Below, one piece after another: positions 22,609-37,336 of a stretch of DNA of 39,548 nucleotides. The translations under genes were made by a program, and so were the position numbers. The notes beneath the pieces are model-generated. The model worked only from the letters and a program-made list of their open reading frames with translations, was not told the DNA's origin and did not search any database. Each line of letters starts with the position of its first letter. Within the stretch, counting starts at the first letter, position 1. The stretch is from Desulfobulbaceae bacterium. GTDB lineage: Bacteria; Desulfobacterota; Desulfobulbia; Desulfobulbales; Desulfocapsaceae. The stretch is taken from contig WBUQ01000024.1 of NCBI GenBank assembly GCA_008933635.1, positions 1 through 39,548 of the forward strand, written 5' to 3'.

Positions 22609-22995
22609 CTACTCGATGCGGATCGAACCGATGCCGGAATACGGCTCAGTCTCATCTTCCGGATCGGCGATGGCTCTGATCGCCGGCTCGGTCTCGCGGG
22701 CCGGCCGCTCATGGATTACCGGCGGCTTCGGCGCAGCTTCCTCCTGATCCCGCTCGATCGCCATTCGGTCAGGCTCGGCCAGAGCCTGCCCGAATGGCTG
22801 TTTGAAGACGGCGATGATACCATCCCGGGTCTCGAGCATCGCCACCAGTTCCCAGCCAGCGGCACCGAATTCGTTCAGCGACTGTTCGATTTCCGACTCG
22901 TCGAGGAAGGCGCTTCCCAGCAAACCCTCCTTCTTCAATTCATACAGTACTGTCTTGTAACTCCAACGCATTTCCTTGCACACCCCTTGCCGCAT
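22609..22995 (-). CDS. DUF4177-like protein with acidic tail
   Basis: A 128-residue protein. Residues about 9-70 (W-S-Y-K-T-V-L-Y, then L-N-E-F-G-A-A-G-W-E-L-V-A-M-L) match the small DUF4177-type fold, which has no known function. The remaining ~55 residues are a low-complexity tail rich in Pro, Glu, Arg and Asp. I chose the ATG at 22995, which overlaps the upstream MORN stop as TGATG; an ATG at 22971 is also possible and matches the domain start better. It is the last gene of the ten-gene run. There is no signal peptide, although its partner is exported. Confidence 0.78.
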   Translation of the reverse strand: MRQGVCKEMRWSYKTVLYELKKEGLLGSAFLDESEIEQSLNEFGAAGWELVAMLETRDGIIAVFKQPFGQALAEPDRMAIERDQEEAAPKPPVIHERPARETEPAIRAIADPEDETEPYSGIGSIRIE

Positions 22996-24770
22996 CAATT
23001 GTTCGGGCCGACAAACGTGTCGTCTTCGAACGTTCCTTCATATACCTTGCCCGCCTCCGTTTCGAGGCGCCCTTCACCACTGCGTTTGCCGCGGCGGAAC
23101 TGTCCTTCATAGCGGCTGCCGTCCTTGCCGACCAGCACCCCTTCACCGTGCGGCAGATCGTCCTTGAAATCCCCTTTGTATTCGGATCCGTCGGGGTATC
23201 GGAGCCAGCCCCGGCCGTTGAACATGCCGCCGGCGAATTCCCCTTCGTAACGGCTGCCGTCGGCAAAGCTGTATTTCCCTTTACCGGAAAACTGGTCTTC
23301 CTTGAATTTGCCGACATACCTGGTGCCATCGGGGTAGGTAAAGGTTCCCTTGCCCTCCTTCATGCCGTCACGGAACTGACCATCGTATTCCCGCCCGTCG
23401 GCGTAGCGGTACACGCCTTTGCCGTCAAATCTGCCCGCCGAAAATTCGCCCTTGTAGGTATCGCCGCCGGGCAGCAGCAGCGATCCCATGCCGTCCATTT
23501 GGCCGTCCTTGGCCTGGCCTTCATAGACCCGGCCATCCGGATAGACCACCTGCGCCTTGCCGCTGACCGGCGATCCGTCTCCGGCCCTGAGAATCCGCCC
23601 ATCCTCGAACCGATAGCCTTCCGGCTGATCCGTTCCGGTATCGCTGCCACTGCCGCCTGAGCCGCCGGCAAGGTCATCGCTGACCTCTTCCTCGGGCTTG
23701 AGCAGCCAGTCGGGCACGTCTCCATCCTGGCCGTCGGCAACCACTGCCGGAGCTTCGGCCTTGGCATCGGATTCAGGTGCCGGCTTGCCGTTCAGGAAGG
23801 GACCGCGGTACTTTCTGCCATCAGCGTAGCGCATCGACCCCTTGCCATGCATGACATCGCTGACGAACTCTCCCTTGTAGACGCTGCCGTCGGCCAGGGT
23901 CAGTTCTCCCCTGCCGTTGCGTTTGCCCCCGGCGAACTCACCCTCGTAACGACTGCCGTCGACATATTCGCGGACGCCCTTGCCCTCTTCCAGGTCGTTG
24001 ACGAAGGTGCCTTCGTACCAGGATCCGTCGGCATACTCCATCCGCCCCTTGCCGTTCCGCCGGCTGTCCTTGAACTCTCCCTTGTAAACGCCGCCGCCGG
24101 GATAGCGCTTAATACCCTCACCGTTCAGCCTGTCCTCGACGAAGGTCCCCTCGAATTCTTCGCCGTTTGCAGCGGTGTACACCCCGAACCCGTGGCGGAC
24201 GGTCCCGCGGAAATCCCCGGTATAGGAACCGCCGTCGATATACTTGCGGGTTCCCCTGCCCTCCGGTTTGCCATTGCGGAACAATCCCTCATACCAGGTG
24301 CCGTCCGGATAGGTCAGCTTTCCATGGCCGTCGACGGTGTTACCGAGAAAACTTCCCTGGTATTCGCGGCCATCGGGGTAAAAGAGTATGCCCTGTCCAT
24401 GGAAGAGACCGCTCTCGAACTCGCCGGTATACTGCGTCCCGTCGCCGCGGAGCAGATTTCCCTTGCCGCTGAAGAGATTGTTCCGGAAGCCGCCCTCGTA
24501 ACTGAATCCATTAGGACCGGTAATCCGGCCCACCCCATGGTACCTGCCGTCCTTGAATTGACCGGTGTAGGTGATGCCATTGGGCAAGGCCAGAGTCCCG
24601 ACACCGCTGATGACCCCGTTTTTGAACTCTCCCTGGTAGCGCCGCCCATCCTTCTGGACAAATACCCCTTTGCCATTCCGGCAGTCTCCTTCCAGGCACT
24701 CGGCTGTGGCCAGACACGGCAGCAGGACAAGGGCAAGGACGGCGCATCCGCGTAATACTGCAAGTTTCAT
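22995..24770 (-). CDS. exported protein with 21 MORN repeats
   Basis: A 591-residue protein with a signal peptide (residues 1-23, hydrophobic core A-V-L-A-L-V-L-L-P, likely cleaved after A-T-A). I count 21 MORN units of 23 residues (pattern G-x-G-x-x-x-Y-x-D-G-x-x-Y-x-G-x-F). Thirteen come first, then a ~70-residue acidic, Gly/Ser-rich linker (D-Y-type repeats absent), then eight more to the C-terminus. MORN repeats form extended beta structures that can bind lipids or proteins; the partner here is unknown. I chose the ATG at 24770, preceded by GGAGG at 12 bases; a GTG at 24803 would spoil the signal peptide. The acceptor gene downstream is translationally coupled. Confidence 0.9.
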   Translation of the reverse strand: MKLAVLRGCAVLALVLLPCLATAECLEGDCRNGKGVFVQKDGRRYQGEFKNGVISGVGTLALPNGITYTGQFKDGRYHGVGRITGPNGFSYEGGFRNNLFSGKGNLLRGDGTQYTGEFESGLFHGQGILFYPDGREYQGSFLGNTVDGHGKLTYPDGTWYEGLFRNGKPEGRGTRKYIDGGSYTGDFRGTVRHGFGVYTAANGEEFEGTFVEDRLNGEGIKRYPGGGVYKGEFKDSRRNGKGRMEYADGSWYEGTFVNDLEEGKGVREYVDGSRYEGEFAGGKRNGRGELTLADGSVYKGEFVSDVMHGKGSMRYADGRKYRGPFLNGKPAPESDAKAEAPAVVADGQDGDVPDWLLKPEEEVSDDLAGGSGGSGSDTGTDQPEGYRFEDGRILRAGDGSPVSGKAQVVYPDGRVYEGQAKDGQMDGMGSLLLPGGDTYKGEFSAGRFDGKGVYRYADGREYDGQFRDGMKEGKGTFTYPDGTRYVGKFKEDQFSGKGKYSFADGSRYEGEFAGGMFNGRGWLRYPDGSEYKGDFKDDLPHGEGVLVGKDGSRYEGQFRRGKRSGEGRLETEAGKVYEGTFEDDTFVGPNN

Positions 24771-27305: not shown

Positions 27306-28535
27306 TCAGAAATCATTCCTCCCGCCCACCGGTATCACCGGCATCTCCCTGGTCAGGGTAAATGCGGCAAACAGTGCAGCCGTGATCATCGCACAACCTG
27401 CCACGACAAATCCGGCGCCGAGGCTGAAGTGATCGCCGATGCTGCCGATCAACGTCGGCATGACTCCGCCGCCGACCAAAAACGCCACCGGTATGCAGAG
27501 GGAGACTGCCGCCGCGCCCCTTTCCCTGCCGCCGGTTGCGCTGAGCATGGCAAAACCGGAAGGGAAAAAGCAGACCGCTATCACCGGCTGCAGGAAAATG
27601 GCGGCGAGCAGCGGGACACCGGCCAGCAGACCGAGGGGGACAGTCATGATCCCGGCCAGCAGCAGCACGACAAGCATCGTCCGCTGGTTGCCGAAGCGAT
27701 CGCCCAGCCAGCCGGCCGCAACCGGCATGACGATGGCGCACAGCCGCGACAGGGCGAGCAACCGATTGGCGGTGCCGGCATCCATGCCCTGCCCGGAAAC
27801 CAGCAACAGCGGCAGCATCGCATAGATTCCCATAGTGGAACAGATCGCCAGGGAAAACAGCAGGATCATCAGCCAGAAGCGGGGCATCGTCAGAAAATCC
27901 CGCAGAACGCCGAAATCGGGCGGACGACCCCGCTGCCGGCCCCCTTTGCCGGCAAGGCCAAACAACAGCGCCATCACGACAAGACCTGCACCCAGGATGG
28001 CCAGCCCCACCCGCCAGGTTGCCCAGCGGACCATGATCCCGCAGACCAGAGGGGCTATGACGAAACCGACGTTCGGTGCCAGCTCATGCACGGCAATTCC
28101 CCGTCCCCAGTATGGCGGCGCGATCATCCCGGTGATCGTCGAGAGCGCGGCCGGCAGGTAAAGTCCGGCTGAGACACCGAGGGCGAACAGGGCGGCGCGG
28201 AGACCAGGCAGATCCTGACAGGCGCTCAGGAGTGCCAGAGAGCAACCGGTGGCCAGGGTTGAACAGAAAATGGTCCATTTGAAGGTGATCCGTGCCGAAA
28301 TGAAACCGGAGGACAGTACCGAGAAAAAATAGCCGGCGGAAATCCACAGGAAGAATGAACCGGCGACGGTATGACTGAAACCGAGCTCCTGCTCAATCTG
28401 AGGCAGCAGGGGCGAGAAGATGATGCGGGAGAGGAAATTCAGCAGAAAGAGTGAGGCCAGCAATACCAGCTGGGGCAATATCCGGCGGAAAGGGAGATAT
28501 CCATCCCTTTCCGGTGAACAGCTGGCGACGGCCAT
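27306..28535 (-). CDS. major facilitator superfamily transporter
   Basis: A 409-residue membrane transporter of the MFS with about 12 hydrophobic segments. A central charged loop (G-K-G-G-R-Q-R-G-R-P-P-D) separates the halves, and a G-D-R-F-G-N-Q-R motif between segments 8 and 9 fits the second MFS signature A. The substrate cannot be predicted. Its ATG overlaps the sixA stop as TGATG, so it is translated with sixA. The next gene follows after 9 bases. Confidence 0.9.
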   Translation of the reverse strand: MAVASCSPERDGYLPFRRILPQLVLLASLFLLNFLSRIIFSPLLPQIEQELGFSHTVAGSFFLWISAGYFFSVLSSGFISARITFKWTIFCSTLATGCSLALLSACQDLPGLRAALFALGVSAGLYLPAALSTITGMIAPPYWGRGIAVHELAPNVGFVIAPLVCGIMVRWATWRVGLAILGAGLVVMALLFGLAGKGGRQRGRPPDFGVLRDFLTMPRFWLMILLFSLAICSTMGIYAMLPLLLVSGQGMDAGTANRLLALSRLCAIVMPVAAGWLGDRFGNQRTMLVVLLLAGIMTVPLGLLAGVPLLAAIFLQPVIAVCFFPSGFAMLSATGGRERGAAAVSLCIPVAFLVGGGVMPTLIGSIGDHFSLGAGFVVAGCAMITAALFAAFTLTREMPVIPVGGRNDF

Positions 28536-29041
28536 CACTCACTGCGTCCGTGATGTTTTTTCGGAAAATCGAAGAACAGCAGCCGGCCGGATCCCTCCTG
28601 CAGACCCTGCCATGACAGCCGGTCGAACTCGATGCCGACGACGCCGCAGGTCGGCATCACGCCGGTATTCCTGCCGGTCAGCCATTGCGCCAGGTCGGTG
28701 ATGCCGTAATTGTGGCCGACAAAGAACAGCACATCATGTTCGTCGGGGACACGGGCGATAGCCGCCAGCAGATCGGGGACATCGGCCTCGTAGATAGTTT
28801 CGTCAAAACGGATCAGGTCTTTGGGAAAGCCGACCGTTTCGGCGATGCGCCGCGCGGTTTTTCTCGCCCGTTTCGCCGGGCTGGACAAAATCAGGTCCGG
28901 ACTGACGCCGTGATCAGCCAGCCTCCTGCCCATGAACGGCGCATCGGCCTTGCCGCGGCCATTCAACGGCCGGTCGAAATCGGGCAGTCCGGGTTCGGCC
29001 CAGCTCGACTTGGCATGCCGGATGAGATACAGTCTCTTCAT
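28535..29041 (-). CDS. sixA: SixA-type phosphohistidine phosphatase
   Basis: A 168-residue histidine phosphatase of the SixA branch. It has L-I-R-H-A-K-S-S-W (catalytic His at about residue 9), S-S-P-A-K-R-A-R-K-T-A, and the second His in V-G-H-N-Y. SixA in E. coli acts on the phosphohistidine of ArcB or the PTS protein NPr; the substrate here is open. The ATG at 29041 overlaps the ParA-like stop as TGATG, while a longer start at 29074 lies in that gene. Histidine phosphatases of this type often lie beside CHAD genes, and one is nearby. Confidence 0.9.
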   Translation of the reverse strand: MKRLYLIRHAKSSWAEPGLPDFDRPLNGRGKADAPFMGRRLADHGVSPDLILSSPAKRARKTARRIAETVGFPKDLIRFDETIYEADVPDLLAAIARVPDEHDVLFFVGHNYGITDLAQWLTGRNTGVMPTCGVVGIEFDRLSWQGLQEGSGRLLFFDFPKKHHGRSE

Positions 29042-29784
29042 CACCGCCTGCTCCTTTCCCACACTTCCTGCCACAGCTTATCGTACTGACGGGCCGCCGG
29101 TGACAGCCGGGCCGTGGCGCCAACCGGCTGACGCAGGATCCCCATCTTCTCGATCTCCGCCAGGAATGGGATGGAAGTCTTCAGAAAGAGCGGATATTTG
29201 CTGTATTTTTCCATCATCGCCAAGTGCATCGATTTCCTCCGCTCGACCATCGAGAAGAAGGCCAGGATTTTGCCCTTGTCGGCATCGAGCTTGCCAAAGA
29301 GTTTCAGCAGCTGTTCCAAGGCGATCAGCGACAGGGTGGTGGGGATGACAGGACAGACCAGGTTGTCTGCCGCTTCAATGATGTTTTCCGAGAGCAGCGT
29401 CAGGTTGGGTGGACAATCCAGGACCAGGACATCGTAATCATCCTTCAAGGGAGCGAACACTCCTGTCAGGACCTGACGCCGTTTCTTCTCGGCCAGCCGG
29501 TTGAGGACAAGGTCGAGGTTGCGGAAGGAAAAATGCGCCGGCAGCAAATCGAGACCTGGAAAATCGGTTCCCCGGATATTCCTGGCGATTTCGCCTTCAA
29601 GGAGCTTTTCACTGTTGAACTTCTTCTTCGGCTTGATCCGGAAATAATAGGATGCCGCCCCCTGCGAATCCATATCGCAGAGCAGGGTGCGCTGACCGGA
29701 GATGGCAGCGGTGTACGCCAGATTCACCGCCGTGGCGGTCTTGCCGACCCCTCCCTTGCTGCTGTATATGGCCAGTGTATTCAT
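29041..29784 (-). CDS. orphan ParA/MinD-type ATPase
   Basis: A 247-residue ParA-family ATPase. The deviant Walker A is K-G-G-V-G-K-T at residues 10-16, and D-M-D-S-Q-G-A-A and the Walker-B-like V-L-V-L-D-C-P-P follow. It lacks the N-terminal DNA-binding helix domain of plasmid P1-type ParA, and no ParB, parS repeats or MinE are near, so it is probably not a chromosome partition gene. Basic residues (K-P-K-K-K) could bind the nucleoid. ParA-like ATPases of this size position cargoes such as carboxysomes. Coupling to the CHAD gene and sixA by TGATG overlaps suggests the cargo is linked to those. A GTG at 29787 is an alternative start. Confidence 0.9.
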   Translation of the reverse strand: MNTLAIYSSKGGVGKTATAVNLAYTAAISGQRTLLCDMDSQGAASYYFRIKPKKKFNSEKLLEGEIARNIRGTDFPGLDLLPAHFSFRNLDLVLNRLAEKKRRQVLTGVFAPLKDDYDVLVLDCPPNLTLLSENIIEAADNLVCPVIPTTLSLIALEQLLKLFGKLDADKGKILAFFSMVERRKSMHLAMMEKYSKYPLFLKTSIPFLAEIEKMGILRQPVGATARLSPAARQYDKLWQEVWERSRR

Positions 29785-31370
29785 CACCGCCTGCCCGCTG
29801 CCTCTCCGGGAGGCCCAACGCCGCCAGCCCTGACGATCGTCTGCACCAGTTCCCGGTTCTCGGCGCAGGCGAAATCGGCGAATATCGCCTCGAACTCGCC
29901 CCGCACCTGCTGTTGCCGCTCAAACAGCCGGGTCATAAGACCACCCAGGGCGGCGGCAACGGCCAGGGCCTGTTGCGGCTCCCCGTTCCGACCCGGACTG
30001 CGGAAGGTCCCGAGCATCACCTGCTGCACCGACAAATCATTGAATTCGCCAAGGTTGTTCTGCAGTTTCTTCATGTGTTTAATCAGCAGTTCGACCTCTT
30101 CCGGTGGAAACAGCGAATGGAAGAATTCCAGGAGGTACCGCAGTTTCTTGACCTCGATGCGCAGGGCATGGAGGGCCGCCGGAGGGCTGTCTGGCCCGAG
30201 GTCTTCACCCCGGGCGATCAGCTTGCGAAAGCGTTTCTTCACCGCCCTGGCGGCAAATACCCGGCACAGTCCAGCCTCCTCCGCCGCTTCCTCCGGCAGA
30301 TTCTCCAGAAAGTGCTGCCACTGCCCGAGCAGGCGCGTAAACCTTTGAGATTTCAGGCTCTTCCGCATCGACCTGAACTCCCTGTTCCGGTACTCCCGCA
30401 TCCCGCGGACAAAACCGGTCAGCCCGGGGTGCAGCACCGTCGGCAGCATCTTCCGATAATCATCTTCCTGCAGCAGATAGACATCACTGTCGCGGACATT
30501 TCCGGTCGTCTGGGTGATCCAGCGGAATTCGGCGCGAAAATGGCGCCCCTGCTCTCCGGGGATCTTCTTGGCGAAAATACTGAGAAGGGACCGGGTCCGG
30601 CGCAGGGATATCCGCAGGTCATGGAGGAACTCGGTATCGATGTCATCGACGGTTCCCGGCAGGTTTCTCCGGATGTCGGACAGCACGGCCAGTCCCGCCT
30701 GCCGCAGCCCGCCCCGGATAGAGATGTCCCGCGGCAGAAGTATGGCCGTTTTGGAACCGTGCGAATCGACGTCGATGCCTGCCCTGGCCAGGATCGGAAC
30801 CAGAAAATGGGTTCCGTTCGGTATTTCCTCCAAGCCATCCTCCCGCATCAGCTGGAGGACGGTCTGGAATTCCTGGTCGTAGCCGCGGATGCCGGTAAGA
30901 TGGAGATGGCAGATGTCCGCCGGCCCCGAAGCCCCAGCGGGGATGATGGTCCGTTCCAGCCTGAGGCGGAGGACGGTCTTTTCGTCCTCATTGAGCAACT
31001 GGAAGAAGCGGCGATGCCGTACCAGTTGCAGTTTCGGACACAGGGCCCGGATGTCGGCATCTTCGATCAGATCATCCCGCAGCGGCCCCTCCTGAAAATT
31101 CCACCAGAACGGTCGTTTCTTCCTCGGCCCCCTGCCCTCACCCAGCAGTGTCCCGTCAGCCGAGAACAGCCTATACCGCCTGCCGCTGCGGGCAAGCGCC
31201 CTGCCCGAAATGAGCAACCTCCATTCAAAGGTGTCAAGGTACTCCTCCCGCACCTCCTCCGGTTCCAGTTCACCGACGGCATACCCGTCGCCAAGACGCT
31301 CGGCAAGAGAGGCAATCTCAATCCCGGTGGGAGCAACAAACGTGCTGGATGGAACCTTTTCGATCATCAT
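29784..31370 (-). CDS. CYTH-like/CHAD domain protein
   Basis: A 528-residue protein. The N-terminal ~205 residues resemble a CYTH triphosphate-binding fold (Y-L-D-T-F-E-W-R-L-L-I-S-G-R-A-L), but the usual E-x-E-x-K signature at the start is missing, so it is likely inactive. From about residue 215 to 510 comes a CHAD domain, with the hallmark helices L-H-D-L-R-I-S-L-R-R-T-R-S-L-L and L-H-A-L-R-I-E-V-K-K-L-R-Y-L-L-E-F-F. CHAD domains bind inorganic polyphosphate and localise to polyP granules (family knowledge). The ATG at 31370 is followed by a second ATG, 10 bases past the argJ stop. The next gene, parA-like, begins at a TGATG overlap. Confidence 0.9.
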   Translation of the reverse strand: MMIEKVPSSTFVAPTGIEIASLAERLGDGYAVGELEPEEVREEYLDTFEWRLLISGRALARSGRRYRLFSADGTLLGEGRGPRKKRPFWWNFQEGPLRDDLIEDADIRALCPKLQLVRHRRFFQLLNEDEKTVLRLRLERTIIPAGASGPADICHLHLTGIRGYDQEFQTVLQLMREDGLEEIPNGTHFLVPILARAGIDVDSHGSKTAILLPRDISIRGGLRQAGLAVLSDIRRNLPGTVDDIDTEFLHDLRISLRRTRSLLSIFAKKIPGEQGRHFRAEFRWITQTTGNVRDSDVYLLQEDDYRKMLPTVLHPGLTGFVRGMREYRNREFRSMRKSLKSQRFTRLLGQWQHFLENLPEEAAEEAGLCRVFAARAVKKRFRKLIARGEDLGPDSPPAALHALRIEVKKLRYLLEFFHSLFPPEEVELLIKHMKKLQNNLGEFNDLSVQQVMLGTFRSPGRNGEPQQALAVAAALGGLMTRLFERQQQVRGEFEAIFADFACAENRELVQTIVRAGGVGPPGEAAGRR

Positions 31371-31380
31371 CGACCGCGGG

Positions 31381-32580
31381 TCATGTCCGGTAGTTGGCGT
31401 TGATCTTCACATAATCCATTGAAAAATCACAGGTGTAGATCTCCTCGCAGCCCGCCCCGTCCTTGAGGTCGATACAGACGGCGAAATGTTTTTCCTTCAG
31501 GACCCGGGAGGCAGCCGCTTCCGCTTCCTTGCCGAGACTCTGGCCATTCTTGACGATGAGCACGTCGTTGAAGGCGATGTCGACATGGTCCGGATTGAAC
31601 CGTACGCCCGAGCGCCCCATGGCGGCAATGATCCGGCCCCAGTTGGCATCCTCGCCGAAGAAAGCTGTCTTCACCAGATTGGAATTGGCAACGGTCCGGG
31701 CAAGACGCTCGGCGTCTTCGTTCTCCTTGGCGCCGCAGACTCGGACGGTGATGGTCTTGGTCGCGCCCTCGCCGTCGGCGACGATCATCAGGGCAAGCTC
31801 CCGCAGTACCTCCTCGAGGGCGTCGGTGAACACCTGACGGTCCTTCTGGGGGGCGTCCTCGTCGATCCACGGATTGCCGGCACGGCCATTGGCCATCACC
31901 AGGACCATATCGTTGGTGCTGGTGTCGCCATCGACGGTGATGCGGTTGAACGTCCGCTTGACTCCGCTTACCAGCGAGGTGTGCAGTTCGGGGAAACTGA
32001 TCTGGACATCGGTCAGTACGAAGGCCAGCATCGTCGCCATGTTCGGCATGATCATTCCCGAACCCTTGGCCATTCCGGCGATATTGACCTCCTTGCCGCC
32101 AAGCTCGATCGTGCGGAAGGATGTCTTTGGCACGGTGTCGGTGGTCATGATCGCCCTGGCCACCTGGTCAAAGCCTTCCGGGGAAAGCCCGGCGACGAGC
32201 TTGTCGATGCTGGCGGTAAAGGCCGGCATGTTCAACTGCTCGCCGATCACCCCGGTTGAGGCGATCTGAACGAGATTATCCTGAATGCCCAGCGCCTGCG
32301 AAACAAGCGCGCTGGTCATGCGGGCGTTCTCCATGCCCTGCTCGCCGGTACAGGCGTTGGCACAGCCGCTGTTGACCAGGACAGCCTGGGCCCGCCCCTG
32401 CTTCAGGCGCTCGATATCGAGCAGTACCGGCGCGGCCTTGACCTGATTGGTGGTGAACACCCCGGCGGTCACCGCCGGGGTGTCGCTGAAAATCAATCCG
32501 AGATCGAGCCTGTCCGCATACCTGATGCCAGCCGCAACGGCTGACGTGGAAAAACCTTTGACTACCATTCGACGATCCAT
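31381..32580 (-). CDS. argJ: bifunctional glutamate N-acetyltransferase / ornithine acetyltransferase
   Basis: A 399-residue ArgJ that recycles acetyl groups in arginine synthesis. The precursor self-cleaves before the Thr in the motif M-A-K-G-S-G-M-I-M-P-N-M-A-T-M-L, giving alpha and beta chains. The C-terminus includes F-F-G-E-D-A-N-W-G-R-I. The start at 32580 has AAGGG upstream. This is the first gene of the long minus-strand run, and its promoter must lie in the following gap. Whether it is one- or two-substrate cannot be read from sequence. Confidence 0.97.
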   Translation of the reverse strand: MDRRMVVKGFSTSAVAAGIRYADRLDLGLIFSDTPAVTAGVFTTNQVKAAPVLLDIERLKQGRAQAVLVNSGCANACTGEQGMENARMTSALVSQALGIQDNLVQIASTGVIGEQLNMPAFTASIDKLVAGLSPEGFDQVARAIMTTDTVPKTSFRTIELGGKEVNIAGMAKGSGMIMPNMATMLAFVLTDVQISFPELHTSLVSGVKRTFNRITVDGDTSTNDMVLVMANGRAGNPWIDEDAPQKDRQVFTDALEEVLRELALMIVADGEGATKTITVRVCGAKENEDAERLARTVANSNLVKTAFFGEDANWGRIIAAMGRSGVRFNPDHVDIAFNDVLIVKNGQSLGKEAEAAASRVLKEKHFAVCIDLKDGAGCEEIYTCDFSMDYVKINANYRT

Positions 32581-34408: not shown

Positions 34409-34879
34409 TCAGCCGGCATGTTCCGCCCCGGCCATCCCGTTCAGCATCTCGACGTGCCGACGCTCCTCGTCGATGATGGCGGCCAGTTGCTGCCTGACCC
34501 CCTCATCCTCGACCAGGTCGGCGAGGAACTGATAAAACAGGATGGTATCCTCCTCAAAGGCCACGGACTGCCGGAGGAATCCGGAAATCTCCCCGGCTCC
34601 CGCCAGTTCGTCCGCATCAAGGGCGAACGTCTGCTCCTTGACCATCTCCTGCAGCAGACTGCGCCCCATCCGTTCCGCCTCCGTCAGCCCTTCCGGATTG
34701 TGGGAACATCCACCTATCGCTGCAAAAATGCGGGCATGGCGGGCCTCCTCCTTCGCCATCCAGCGCAGCAACTCCGCCATTGCCGGTTTTCCCACCCGAT
34801 CGGCGGCCCGGAGATATGTCGACTCGCCGTTGCGTTCGATCTGAACGGCGATGGCGCAGATATCCTCGCGAGTGAACAT
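34409..34879 (-). CDS. ferritin-like diiron protein
   Basis: A 156-residue protein of the ferritin-like superfamily, rubrerythrin-like but without a C-terminal rubredoxin domain. The helix signatures are E-R-N-G-E at residues 15-19, E-E-A-R-H at 44-48 (E-x-x-H), F-E-E-D-T-I-L-F-Y, and D-E-E-R-R-H (E-x-x-H) near the end. These can bind two irons. Rubrerythrin-like proteins in anaerobes reduce peroxide; that role is likely, not proven. The ATG at 34879 is preceded by AAGGAGAG. It follows the exported protein gene by 5 bases, so they are an operon. Confidence 0.87.
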   Translation of the reverse strand: MFTREDICAIAVQIERNGESTYLRAADRVGKPAMAELLRWMAKEEARHARIFAAIGGCSHNPEGLTEAERMGRSLLQEMVKEQTFALDADELAGAGEISGFLRQSVAFEEDTILFYQFLADLVEDEGVRQQLAAIIDEERRHVEMLNGMAGAEHAG

Positions 34880-34884
34880 GCGCG

Positions 34885-35319
34885 TCACTCTCCTTCCGGG
34901 GCCATGCTTTCCATGATCATCATCAGCCGCTCATTGGCCTTCTCCACCTCGGGATCCTCCATGAACGGGGCGATGCGGATGAACGACTGGCCGAACCGCT
35001 CCCCCAGCGCGTCGGCCTTCTGCTCGAGTTCCGCATACTTCGGCGGAACGGACTGTTCATTCTGCAACTCCGGATACTTCCTGTTCAGCTCCCGCATCTT
35101 CGGCGCCAGTTCTGCCATTTCGTCGGCGAAGGCATTGATCGCCACGGCGAACGCCCCGGCGCTTTGCGCCTTTTCCACAGCATCCAGGTAATTTTCCAGG
35201 GCCGGCACATACTCCGCGAACAGTTCGCTCGCCTCTTCGTATTTATCCCCTGCTTGGCAGACTGCAGCGAACAGCAGCACCAGGACGGCGGCACCGGCAC
35301 ACAGCATTTTTCTGTACAT
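34885..35319 (-). CDS. exported alpha-helical protein, unknown function
   Basis: A 144-residue protein with a Sec signal peptide (M-Y-R-K-M-L-C-A-G, core A-A-V-L-V-L-L-F-A-A-V, likely cleaved after C-Q-A). It does not fit a lipobox. The mature part is about 120 residues, acidic, and helix-rich with Ala, Glu and Lys, which suggests a helical bundle; no motif was recognised. The ATG at 35319 has AAGGAGTGAAGAAA upstream. It is directly followed by the ferritin-like gene, which suggests shared regulation. Confidence 0.8.
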   Translation of the reverse strand: MYRKMLCAGAAVLVLLFAAVCQAGDKYEEASELFAEYVPALENYLDAVEKAQSAGAFAVAINAFADEMAELAPKMRELNRKYPELQNEQSVPPKYAELEQKADALGERFGQSFIRIAPFMEDPEVEKANERLMMIMESMAPEGE

Positions 35320-36430: not shown

Positions 36431-37336
36431 ATGGCGAAAAAATCGAAGAAGCAGGACAGCAACGGTACCGAAAATGTCAGGCTCGCCGAGGGGACCGCTT
36501 ACAGGAACGTCGACAGCAAAAAGGGTGACGACAAGGTTGCCGTGTGGGTAAGCAAGAGTCAGATCAAATACGAGCAGGAACTGAAGAAGCTGCAGATCGA
36601 ACTGATGAAGCTGCAGCTCTCGATGAAGCAGAATGGCGAACGGGTACTGGCGATCTTCGAGGGACGGGACGCAGCCGGCAAGGGCGGCACCATCAAGCGG
36701 TTCACAGAACATCTCAACCCGCGCAGCGCCCGGGTGGTGGCGCTGGCCAAGCCGAACGAGACGGAGATGACCCAGTGGTACTTCCAGCGCTATATCGCCC
36801 ACCTGCCTTCAGCCGGAGAAATCGTCCTGTTCGACCGCAGCTGGTATAACCGGGCAATGGTCGAGCCGGTGATGGGCTTCTGCACCGACGAGCAGAACAA
36901 ACGCTTCCTCAAGGACGTCCCGATGTTCGAGGAGATGTTGGTCAAGAACGGCATCAGGCTGTTCAAATTCTACTTCTCGGTATCGAAGGCGGTGCAGAAG
37001 GAAAGGTTCGACAGCCGCAAGACCGATGTCCTGAAACAGTACAAACTGTCACCGATCGACAACCTGGCCCAGAAATACTGGGACCAGTACTCGATCCGCA
37101 AATTCCAGATGCTCTCCGAGACCAACCGCACCATCGCACCCTGGACCATCATCCGCTCCGACAACAAGAAACAGGCCCGCCTCAACTGCATGAAATTCGT
37201 CCTCAGCAGCATGGAATACCAGGACAAGCTGCCTGATGCTGAATTGACGCCGGACCCCGAGCTCGTCATCTCCGGCATCGATGAACTCCGCCACATGGAG
37301 GAAAACCTGATGCAGCCCAAAGAGCTGCGGGGCTGA
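36431..37336 (+). CDS. ppk2: polyphosphate kinase 2
   Basis: A 301-residue PPK2, which transfers phosphate between polyphosphate and nucleotides, mainly polyP with GDP or ADP. Walker A is G-R-D-A-A-G-K-G-G, and D-R-S-W-Y-N-R-A-M-V-E-P-V-M-G-F is the lid/Walker B region. The first ~35 residues are Lys-rich and unlike the core. AAAAGGAATCC precedes the ATG. The subfamily (one or two domains; class I-III) is not decided by sequence reading, but length fits a single domain. It is followed by a terminator shared with secA, and lies 6 kb from the CHAD gene. Confidence 0.95.
   Translation: MAKKSKKQDSNGTENVRLAEGTAYRNVDSKKGDDKVAVWVSKSQIKYEQELKKLQIELMKLQLSMKQNGERVLAIFEGRDAAGKGGTIKRFTEHLNPRSARVVALAKPNETEMTQWYFQRYIAHLPSAGEIVLFDRSWYNRAMVEPVMGFCTDEQNKRFLKDVPMFEEMLVKNGIRLFKFYFSVSKAVQKERFDSRKTDVLKQYKLSPIDNLAQKYWDQYSIRKFQMLSETNRTIAPWTIIRSDNKKQARLNCMKFVLSSMEYQDKLPDAELTPDPELVISGIDELRHMEENLMQPKELRG

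Follow-up and report, generated by a model that had tools for sequence, protein, structure and literature searches.

A conserved CHAD–ParA gene pair and its possible part in positioning polyphosphate granules

A gene for a CHAD-family protein lies directly upstream of a gene for a ParA-type ATPase in 104 of 111 evaluable loci that were collected irrespective of linkage. The sequence-only reading of the window (the whole stretch of DNA analysed, 39,548 nucleotides) had proposed a translationally linked trio of CHAD, ParA and a SixA phosphatase, in which the ParA moves polyphosphate (polyP) granules and the CHAD protein is the adaptor. The CHAD–ParA half of that proposal is backed by the linkage, by neighbouring polyP genes and by the related protein CtCHAD, but the trio did not hold as a unit: the genes flanking the pair change from locus to locus and a SixA-like gene is missing from many of them. 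The conserved unit is the pair. The pairing itself is strongly supported and is very probably functional. We lean slightly towards the view, drawn from the protein families involved, that the role of the pair is to position or partition polyP granules, CHAD being the adaptor bound to them.

Genes in the window were assigned from open reading frames and Pfam matches, which upheld the positions and identities given earlier for CHAD, ParA and the histidine phosphatase. The relevant features are the following.

27306–28535, minus strand: MFS transporter (MFS_1, 3.1e-37), with a TGATG join to the SixA-like gene
28535–29041, minus strand: SixA-like histidine phosphatase, 168 residues, ATG at 29041 and stop at 28535 (His_Phos_1, PF00300, 4.2e-12)
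29041–29784, minus strand: ParA-type ATPase, 247 residues, deviant Walker A KGGVGKT (AAA_31, 5.5e-34)
29784–31370, minus strand: CHAD-family protein, 528 residues (Pfam CHAD, 2.9e-56)
31381–32580, minus strand: argJ (ArgJ, 9e-151), ending 10 bp before CHAD
36431–37336, plus strand: PPK2 polyphosphate kinase (Pfam PPK2, 2.2e-95)

The order on the minus strand is argJ, the 10 bp gap, CHAD, ParA, the SixA-like phosphatase and the MFS transporter. In the window sequence the CHAD/ParA, ParA/SixA-like and SixA-like/MFS junctions are each a one-base TGATG overlap. The overlaps on which a translationally linked trio had been proposed are real, but they do not by themselves delimit a three-gene module, because argJ and the MFS gene are packed equally tightly. 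Both of these are context genes; the MFS gene is kept in part of the family members, and argJ is conserved at the locus within this order alone. The PPK2 gene does lie about 5 kb upstream of the CHAD locus, as had been pointed out, but taken alone it is a weak argument, since it is on the opposite strand, is separated from the locus by several genes and is conserved by local synteny in the family. Scans for promoters and terminators gave no enrichment over shuffled sequence. A defence-system reading was unsupported, with PADLOC returning merely a 20-bit P-loop match.

To follow the pair among relatives, 58 genomes were searched with the ParA, the surrounding DNA was extracted and genes were called and clustered. 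Of the 36 loci obtained, that of the window among them, 33 had CHAD immediately upstream of ParA. CHAD occurs together with this ParA in 32 of the 58 genomes, one has CHAD only (G047), one has ParA only (G009) and the remainder have neither, setting aside a distant homologue in one genome; because of shared ancestry, these counts are not independent of one another. A broader scan yielded 80 ParA loci at 45–69% identity. Four of these repeated genomes already seen and one of the other 76 was cut by a contig end, leaving 75 evaluable loci, in 71 of which CHAD was found directly upstream by a six-frame HMM search and inspection. The sources were Desulfobacterota, alpha-, beta- and gammaproteobacteria, Chlorobi and Verrucomicrobiota/Kiritimatiellota, together with MAGs labelled KSB1, Calditrichota, Latescibacterota, Gemmatimonadota, Chloroflexota, Actinomycetota and an archaeon, for which single-MAG assignments may reflect contamination. 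The pair is also present in the cultured bacteria C. tepidum, Nitrosomonas europaea and Ruegeria. Among 109 linked pairs the two genes overlap or abut in 54 and lie within 50 bp of each other in a further 40.

The linkage has limits. In a tree of 135 ParAs, a core clade of 98 sequences (SH-aLRT 95) contained 95 that were CHAD-linked, the exceptions being those of G025 and G009, from the same genus, and one at a contig end, whereas a smaller sister group of 30 mixes linked and unlinked sequences. The linkage label required about eight changes on this tree compared with about 24 for shuffled labels. In a random Desulfobacterota sample, ParA scored above 250 bits in six of 148 genomes and was beside CHAD in five of these six. 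A related ParA was found in 61 of 299 genomes of a random Pseudomonadota sample and was adjacent to CHAD in five; the remainder fall mostly in the sister group, and the notion that every ParA of the wider family is CHAD-linked was rejected. The unlinked Pseudomonadota ParAs are near genes such as alaS, truA, gyrB and cysM (identified by visual inspection of the sequences). Two of these observations count against a positioning role: close sister ParAs (Burkholderiales and others) are not CHAD-linked despite their similar charge, and ParA is kept without an adjacent CHAD in G025 and G009, the latter having no CHAD at all. Loss of PPK1 was dropped as the cause of the broken linkage in these two genomes, since G036, of the same genus and likewise without PPK1, keeps CHAD–ParA.

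The CHAD protein was modelled with AlphaFold2 (pLDDT 89.6) as an N-terminal degenerate TTM/CYTH fold (residues ∼4–204) followed by a C-terminal CHAD domain (residues ∼204–517). The model matched CtCHAD (6qv7) with a Z of 34.5, and residues ∼5–198 of its N-terminal domain matched CYTH/TTM structures with a Z of about 11–12. The earlier description of this region as a degenerate CYTH was borne out, in that the fold is modelled while Pfam gives no CYTH match to the protein and the catalytic ExExK motif is not found at its N-terminus. An ExExK pattern occurs within the first 60 residues in three of the 93 CHADs of the cluster, at the N-terminus in none of them; of 17 sampled unlinked long CHADs, 16 keep the motif at the N-terminus. 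Against a profile of the linked CHADs, linked sequences scored 360–679 bits and unlinked CYTH-CHADs 48–152 bits. In CtCHAD, the residues that contact polyP have been established by mutation and long polyP is bound tightly (PMC6537752). The six main contacts are identical in the window's protein (His250, Arg253, Arg257, Arg293, Arg411 and Tyr412), six surface Arg/Lys residues are identical or conservatively replaced, and the core contact set is invariant across 30 CHAD sequences. Judged by these sequences, the ParA-linked CHADs are a distinct subfamily in which the catalytic ExExK is lost and the polyP-contact residues are retained; it includes CtCHAD itself, which was crystallized with polyP. 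An adaptor, more than an enzyme, would be expected to combine an inactive catalytic domain with a polyP-binding domain that is intact. The linked CHADs were also searched for the basic tail that ParA partners typically have at the N-terminus; none was found (mean N20 charge −0.6), which weighs against positioning, and a ParA-activating tail on CHAD was accordingly rejected. At one locus a histidine phosphatase–CHAD fusion was suggested by eye from an RHA motif; Pfam called CHAD alone.

In the ParA, Lys10 and Lys15 (Walker A with the signature lysine), Asp39 (Walker A′) and Asp123 (Walker B) are invariant in 34 orthologues, and the predicted model gave Foldseek TM scores of 0.85–0.88 to Soj/ParA structures. 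The description of this ATPase as a ParA without ParB or parS was confirmed: no ParB gene is found among its neighbours in the window, where the partner gene is CHAD, and a search of the window for canonical chromosomal parS gave no match at up to three mismatches. A ParABS reading was rejected on these grounds. The linked ParAs have a mean net charge of about +11 compared with +0.6 for 12 chromosomal-type ParAs; charge fails to separate linked from unlinked ParAs, because the unlinked sisters are nearly as basic (about +9). Such a charge is compatible with binding to the nucleoid or to polyP, and is only suggestive of ATP-dependent dimerization and non-specific DNA binding.

We infer the following scheme from the families concerned. 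The CHAD protein, in which a dead TTM domain accompanies the polyP-binding CHAD domain, would sit on polyP granules, and the adjacent, strongly basic ParA would bind ATP, dimerize and associate with the nucleoid. Granule-bound CHAD would then engage ParA and trigger hydrolysis, a step that in one clade might fall instead to a small basic ribbon-helix-helix protein. Granules would be dragged or spaced along the ParA gradient and shared between daughter cells, much as McdA does with carboxysomes. Granule binding by the window's CHAD, DNA binding by ParA, contact between the two proteins and positioning itself are all put forward as predictions. The wider claim, that CHAD–ParA may be a widespread, unrecognized ATP-driven positioning system for polyP granules, built on a dead TTM–CHAD adaptor with a ParG-like activator added in certain lineages, is offered more tentatively.

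The ParA-like BcsQ acts in cellulose synthase assembly. By analogy, the ATPase here could be a regulatory or assembly subunit that governs, together with CHAD, how polyP is made, how its chains are handled or how granules nucleate. PPK1, Ppx, CYTH and histidine phosphatase genes are frequent neighbours, the ParA has some similarity to the CBP_BcsQ domain (1.7e-06) and a dead TTM domain could serve as a regulatory fold. We nevertheless consider this unlikely, as both the sequence and the fold of the ParA are nearest to Soj/ParA, not to BcsQ, and the protein is strongly basic, which a nucleoid binder should be, though a polyP binder should be too. It is improbable that the pair tethers granules statically to the nucleoid with ATP gating only the DNA-bound state: AlgP in Pseudomonas aeruginosa provides a precedent (PMC9239181) and the high positive charge of the ParA would suit a tether, but its Walker A, A′ and B motifs are complete and invariant, which points to hydrolysis in use.

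Positioning by CHAD–ParA is favoured by the surrounding polyP genes; the families PPK1, PPK2, Ppx-GppA, CYTH, Nudix and His_Phos were checked with Pfam on cluster representatives. When argJ-type loci are set aside, PPK1, PPK2, Ppx or CYTH is found within 5 kb at 41 of the 82 remaining linked loci and at none of 24 unlinked sister ParAs (Fisher p = 1.5e-6, a value that ignores kinship and rests on a somewhat hand-picked comparison group). One genome (G188) has PPK1, CHAD, ParA, CYTH and a Nudix–histidine phosphatase fusion in this order on a single strand. In C. tepidum the order is PPK1, a 273-residue repeat protein of unknown family, CHAD and ParA, with 2 bp between the last two, and this CHAD is 100% identical to the crystallized CtCHAD.

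The third gene of the proposed trio contains a histidine phosphatase branch 1 domain, but its score against the NCBIfam SixA equivalog TIGR00249 (56.8 bits) is below the cut-off (74.5 bits), so the protein is called SixA-like here and not a demonstrated SixA. Most Desulfocapsaceae loci carry the gene. Both in this family and in Desulfobulbales it often lies downstream of ParA; elsewhere it turns up in other positions. Many other linked loci have a CYTH gene, PPK1 or nothing in its place. It recurs independently beside CHAD–ParA in four loci and as the Nudix fusion of G188. It is a lineage-specific accessory with a plausible role in phosphate metabolism, while tuning of ParA by this protein is unsupported. 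The SixA-like, CYTH, Nudix, PPK and Ppx neighbours may together be accessories of polyphosphate and phosphate metabolism.

The same neighbours admit a reading in which CYTH, SixA-like, Nudix and CHAD proteins form a phosphate-metabolism enzyme set, with ParA as a chaperone or signalling protein that depends on nucleotide and with a cargo other than granules. Nudix–histidine phosphatase and CYTH–Nudix fusions do adjoin ParA in some loci. Of the 33 relatives with CHAD, 11 have no PPK1, so that granule formation is not assured in these 11, which also counts against positioning. The reading has a low probability all the same, given that CtCHAD, of the same subfamily, binds long polyP tightly and that PPK1 adjoins the pair in several lineages. 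Chance or operon hitch-hiking, with adjacency due to shared descent only, is very improbable: the whole secA–argJ–CHAD–ParA region is syntenic within Desulfocapsaceae, but across phyla the pair persists in about 45 differing flanking contexts (45 upstream families in 95 cases and 44 downstream families in 101 cases).

In one clade (17 loci) the gene directly upstream of CHAD encodes a basic-tailed protein of about 57 residues that weakly matches ribbon-helix-helix. This gene is absent from the window, which has no room for it. ParF–ParG is a type Ib plasmid partition system, and the protein of this clade is ParG-like in plan. The differences from ParF–ParG are that the ribbon-helix-helix gene is absent here, the loci are chromosomal, CHAD intervenes and no centromere was identified.

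The sequence-only reading knew of no described system of this make-up. A functional model was indeed not found, but ppk/parA/CHAD clustering has been published: a folD–ppk–parA–CHAD gene group was reported in 2024 in Acidithiobacillus, for this one genus, without a functional model and with the ParA described solely via plasmid partition (PMC10892726). No other mention of the pairing was found in a literature search, with subscription papers and preprints largely outside its scope. AlgP likewise links polyP granule spacing to the nucleoid, but it is a histone H1-like protein with no known ATPase (PMC9239181). A 2025 review of organelle positioning has AlgP, with no ATPase, as its sole entry for polyP granules and leaves the energy need undecided (PMC13052382). 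The occurrence of CHAD–ParA across many bacterial phyla suggests an unstudied, energy-driven positioning or inheritance of these granules. The pair would supply a concrete ATPase and an adaptor for which, in CtCHAD, a polyP-bound crystal structure exists and, if the proposal is true, a likely cargo could be assigned to a sizeable set of orphan ParAs.

The phosins (in R. eutropha, and CtCHAD; 3E0S, 6QV7, 6QVA) have the CHAD fold and the polyP-contact residues in common with the window's protein, but many of them are CHAD alone or an active CYTH-CHAD and are unlinked to ParA. Genes for A/D ATPases are often near those of their cargo (PMC10241942), and the known partners of these ATPases have basic, often disordered N-termini (PMC10241942, PMC12204374). 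McdAB resembles the pair in plan, with a small ParA-type ATPase likewise encoded beside a cargo-associated partner and a nucleoid-gradient mechanism proposed. Here, in contrast, PDB searches place the ATPase nearer to Soj than McdA, the place of McdB is taken by a CHAD/dead-TTM protein whose N-terminus lacks a basic tail, and the cargo would be polyP granules.

Downstream of the CHAD, ParA and SixA-like genes, the window encodes a MORN protein (15 repeats) and then a DUF4177 protein (22609-24770), a gene order that is kept in many Desulfocapsaceae. The following features were recorded in the window and in loci extracted from other genomes (L numbers, with locus-internal coordinates).

Window 34409-34888: rubrerythrin-like protein; its similarity to ferritin-like encapsulin cargo of the EncB type is weak, at 32 bits against a cut-off of 90
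L149:1-867: Nudix-histidine phosphatase fusion adjoining CHAD-ParA
L132:2562-3410: CYTH-Nudix fusion adjoining CHAD-ParA
L178:7531-8352: CSGNRL-type repeat protein, ~273 residues, Chlorobi
L146:3308-3484: basic-tailed protein, ~57 residues (also L102, L105, L109, L126, L169 and others)

The two fusions hint that nucleotide polyphosphates may be substrates. The Chlorobi repeat protein, encoded between PPK1 and CHAD-ParA, gave no Pfam match. An unlinked CHAD protein (L211:1429-2847) resembles SixA-like phosphatases at its N-terminus (LIRHAK); CHAD was its sole Pfam call. A sister group of ParAs in Burkholderiales and other Pseudomonadota (L152-L168) is as basic as the CHAD-linked ParAs and is not linked to CHAD, and no partner was evident for its members.

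The basic-tailed protein, encoded directly 5' of CHAD in 17 loci of one clade, matches the ribbon-helix-helix fold weakly and is a candidate ParA activator. Its plan resembles that of ParG, the small ribbon-helix-helix partner of ParF in plasmid partition.
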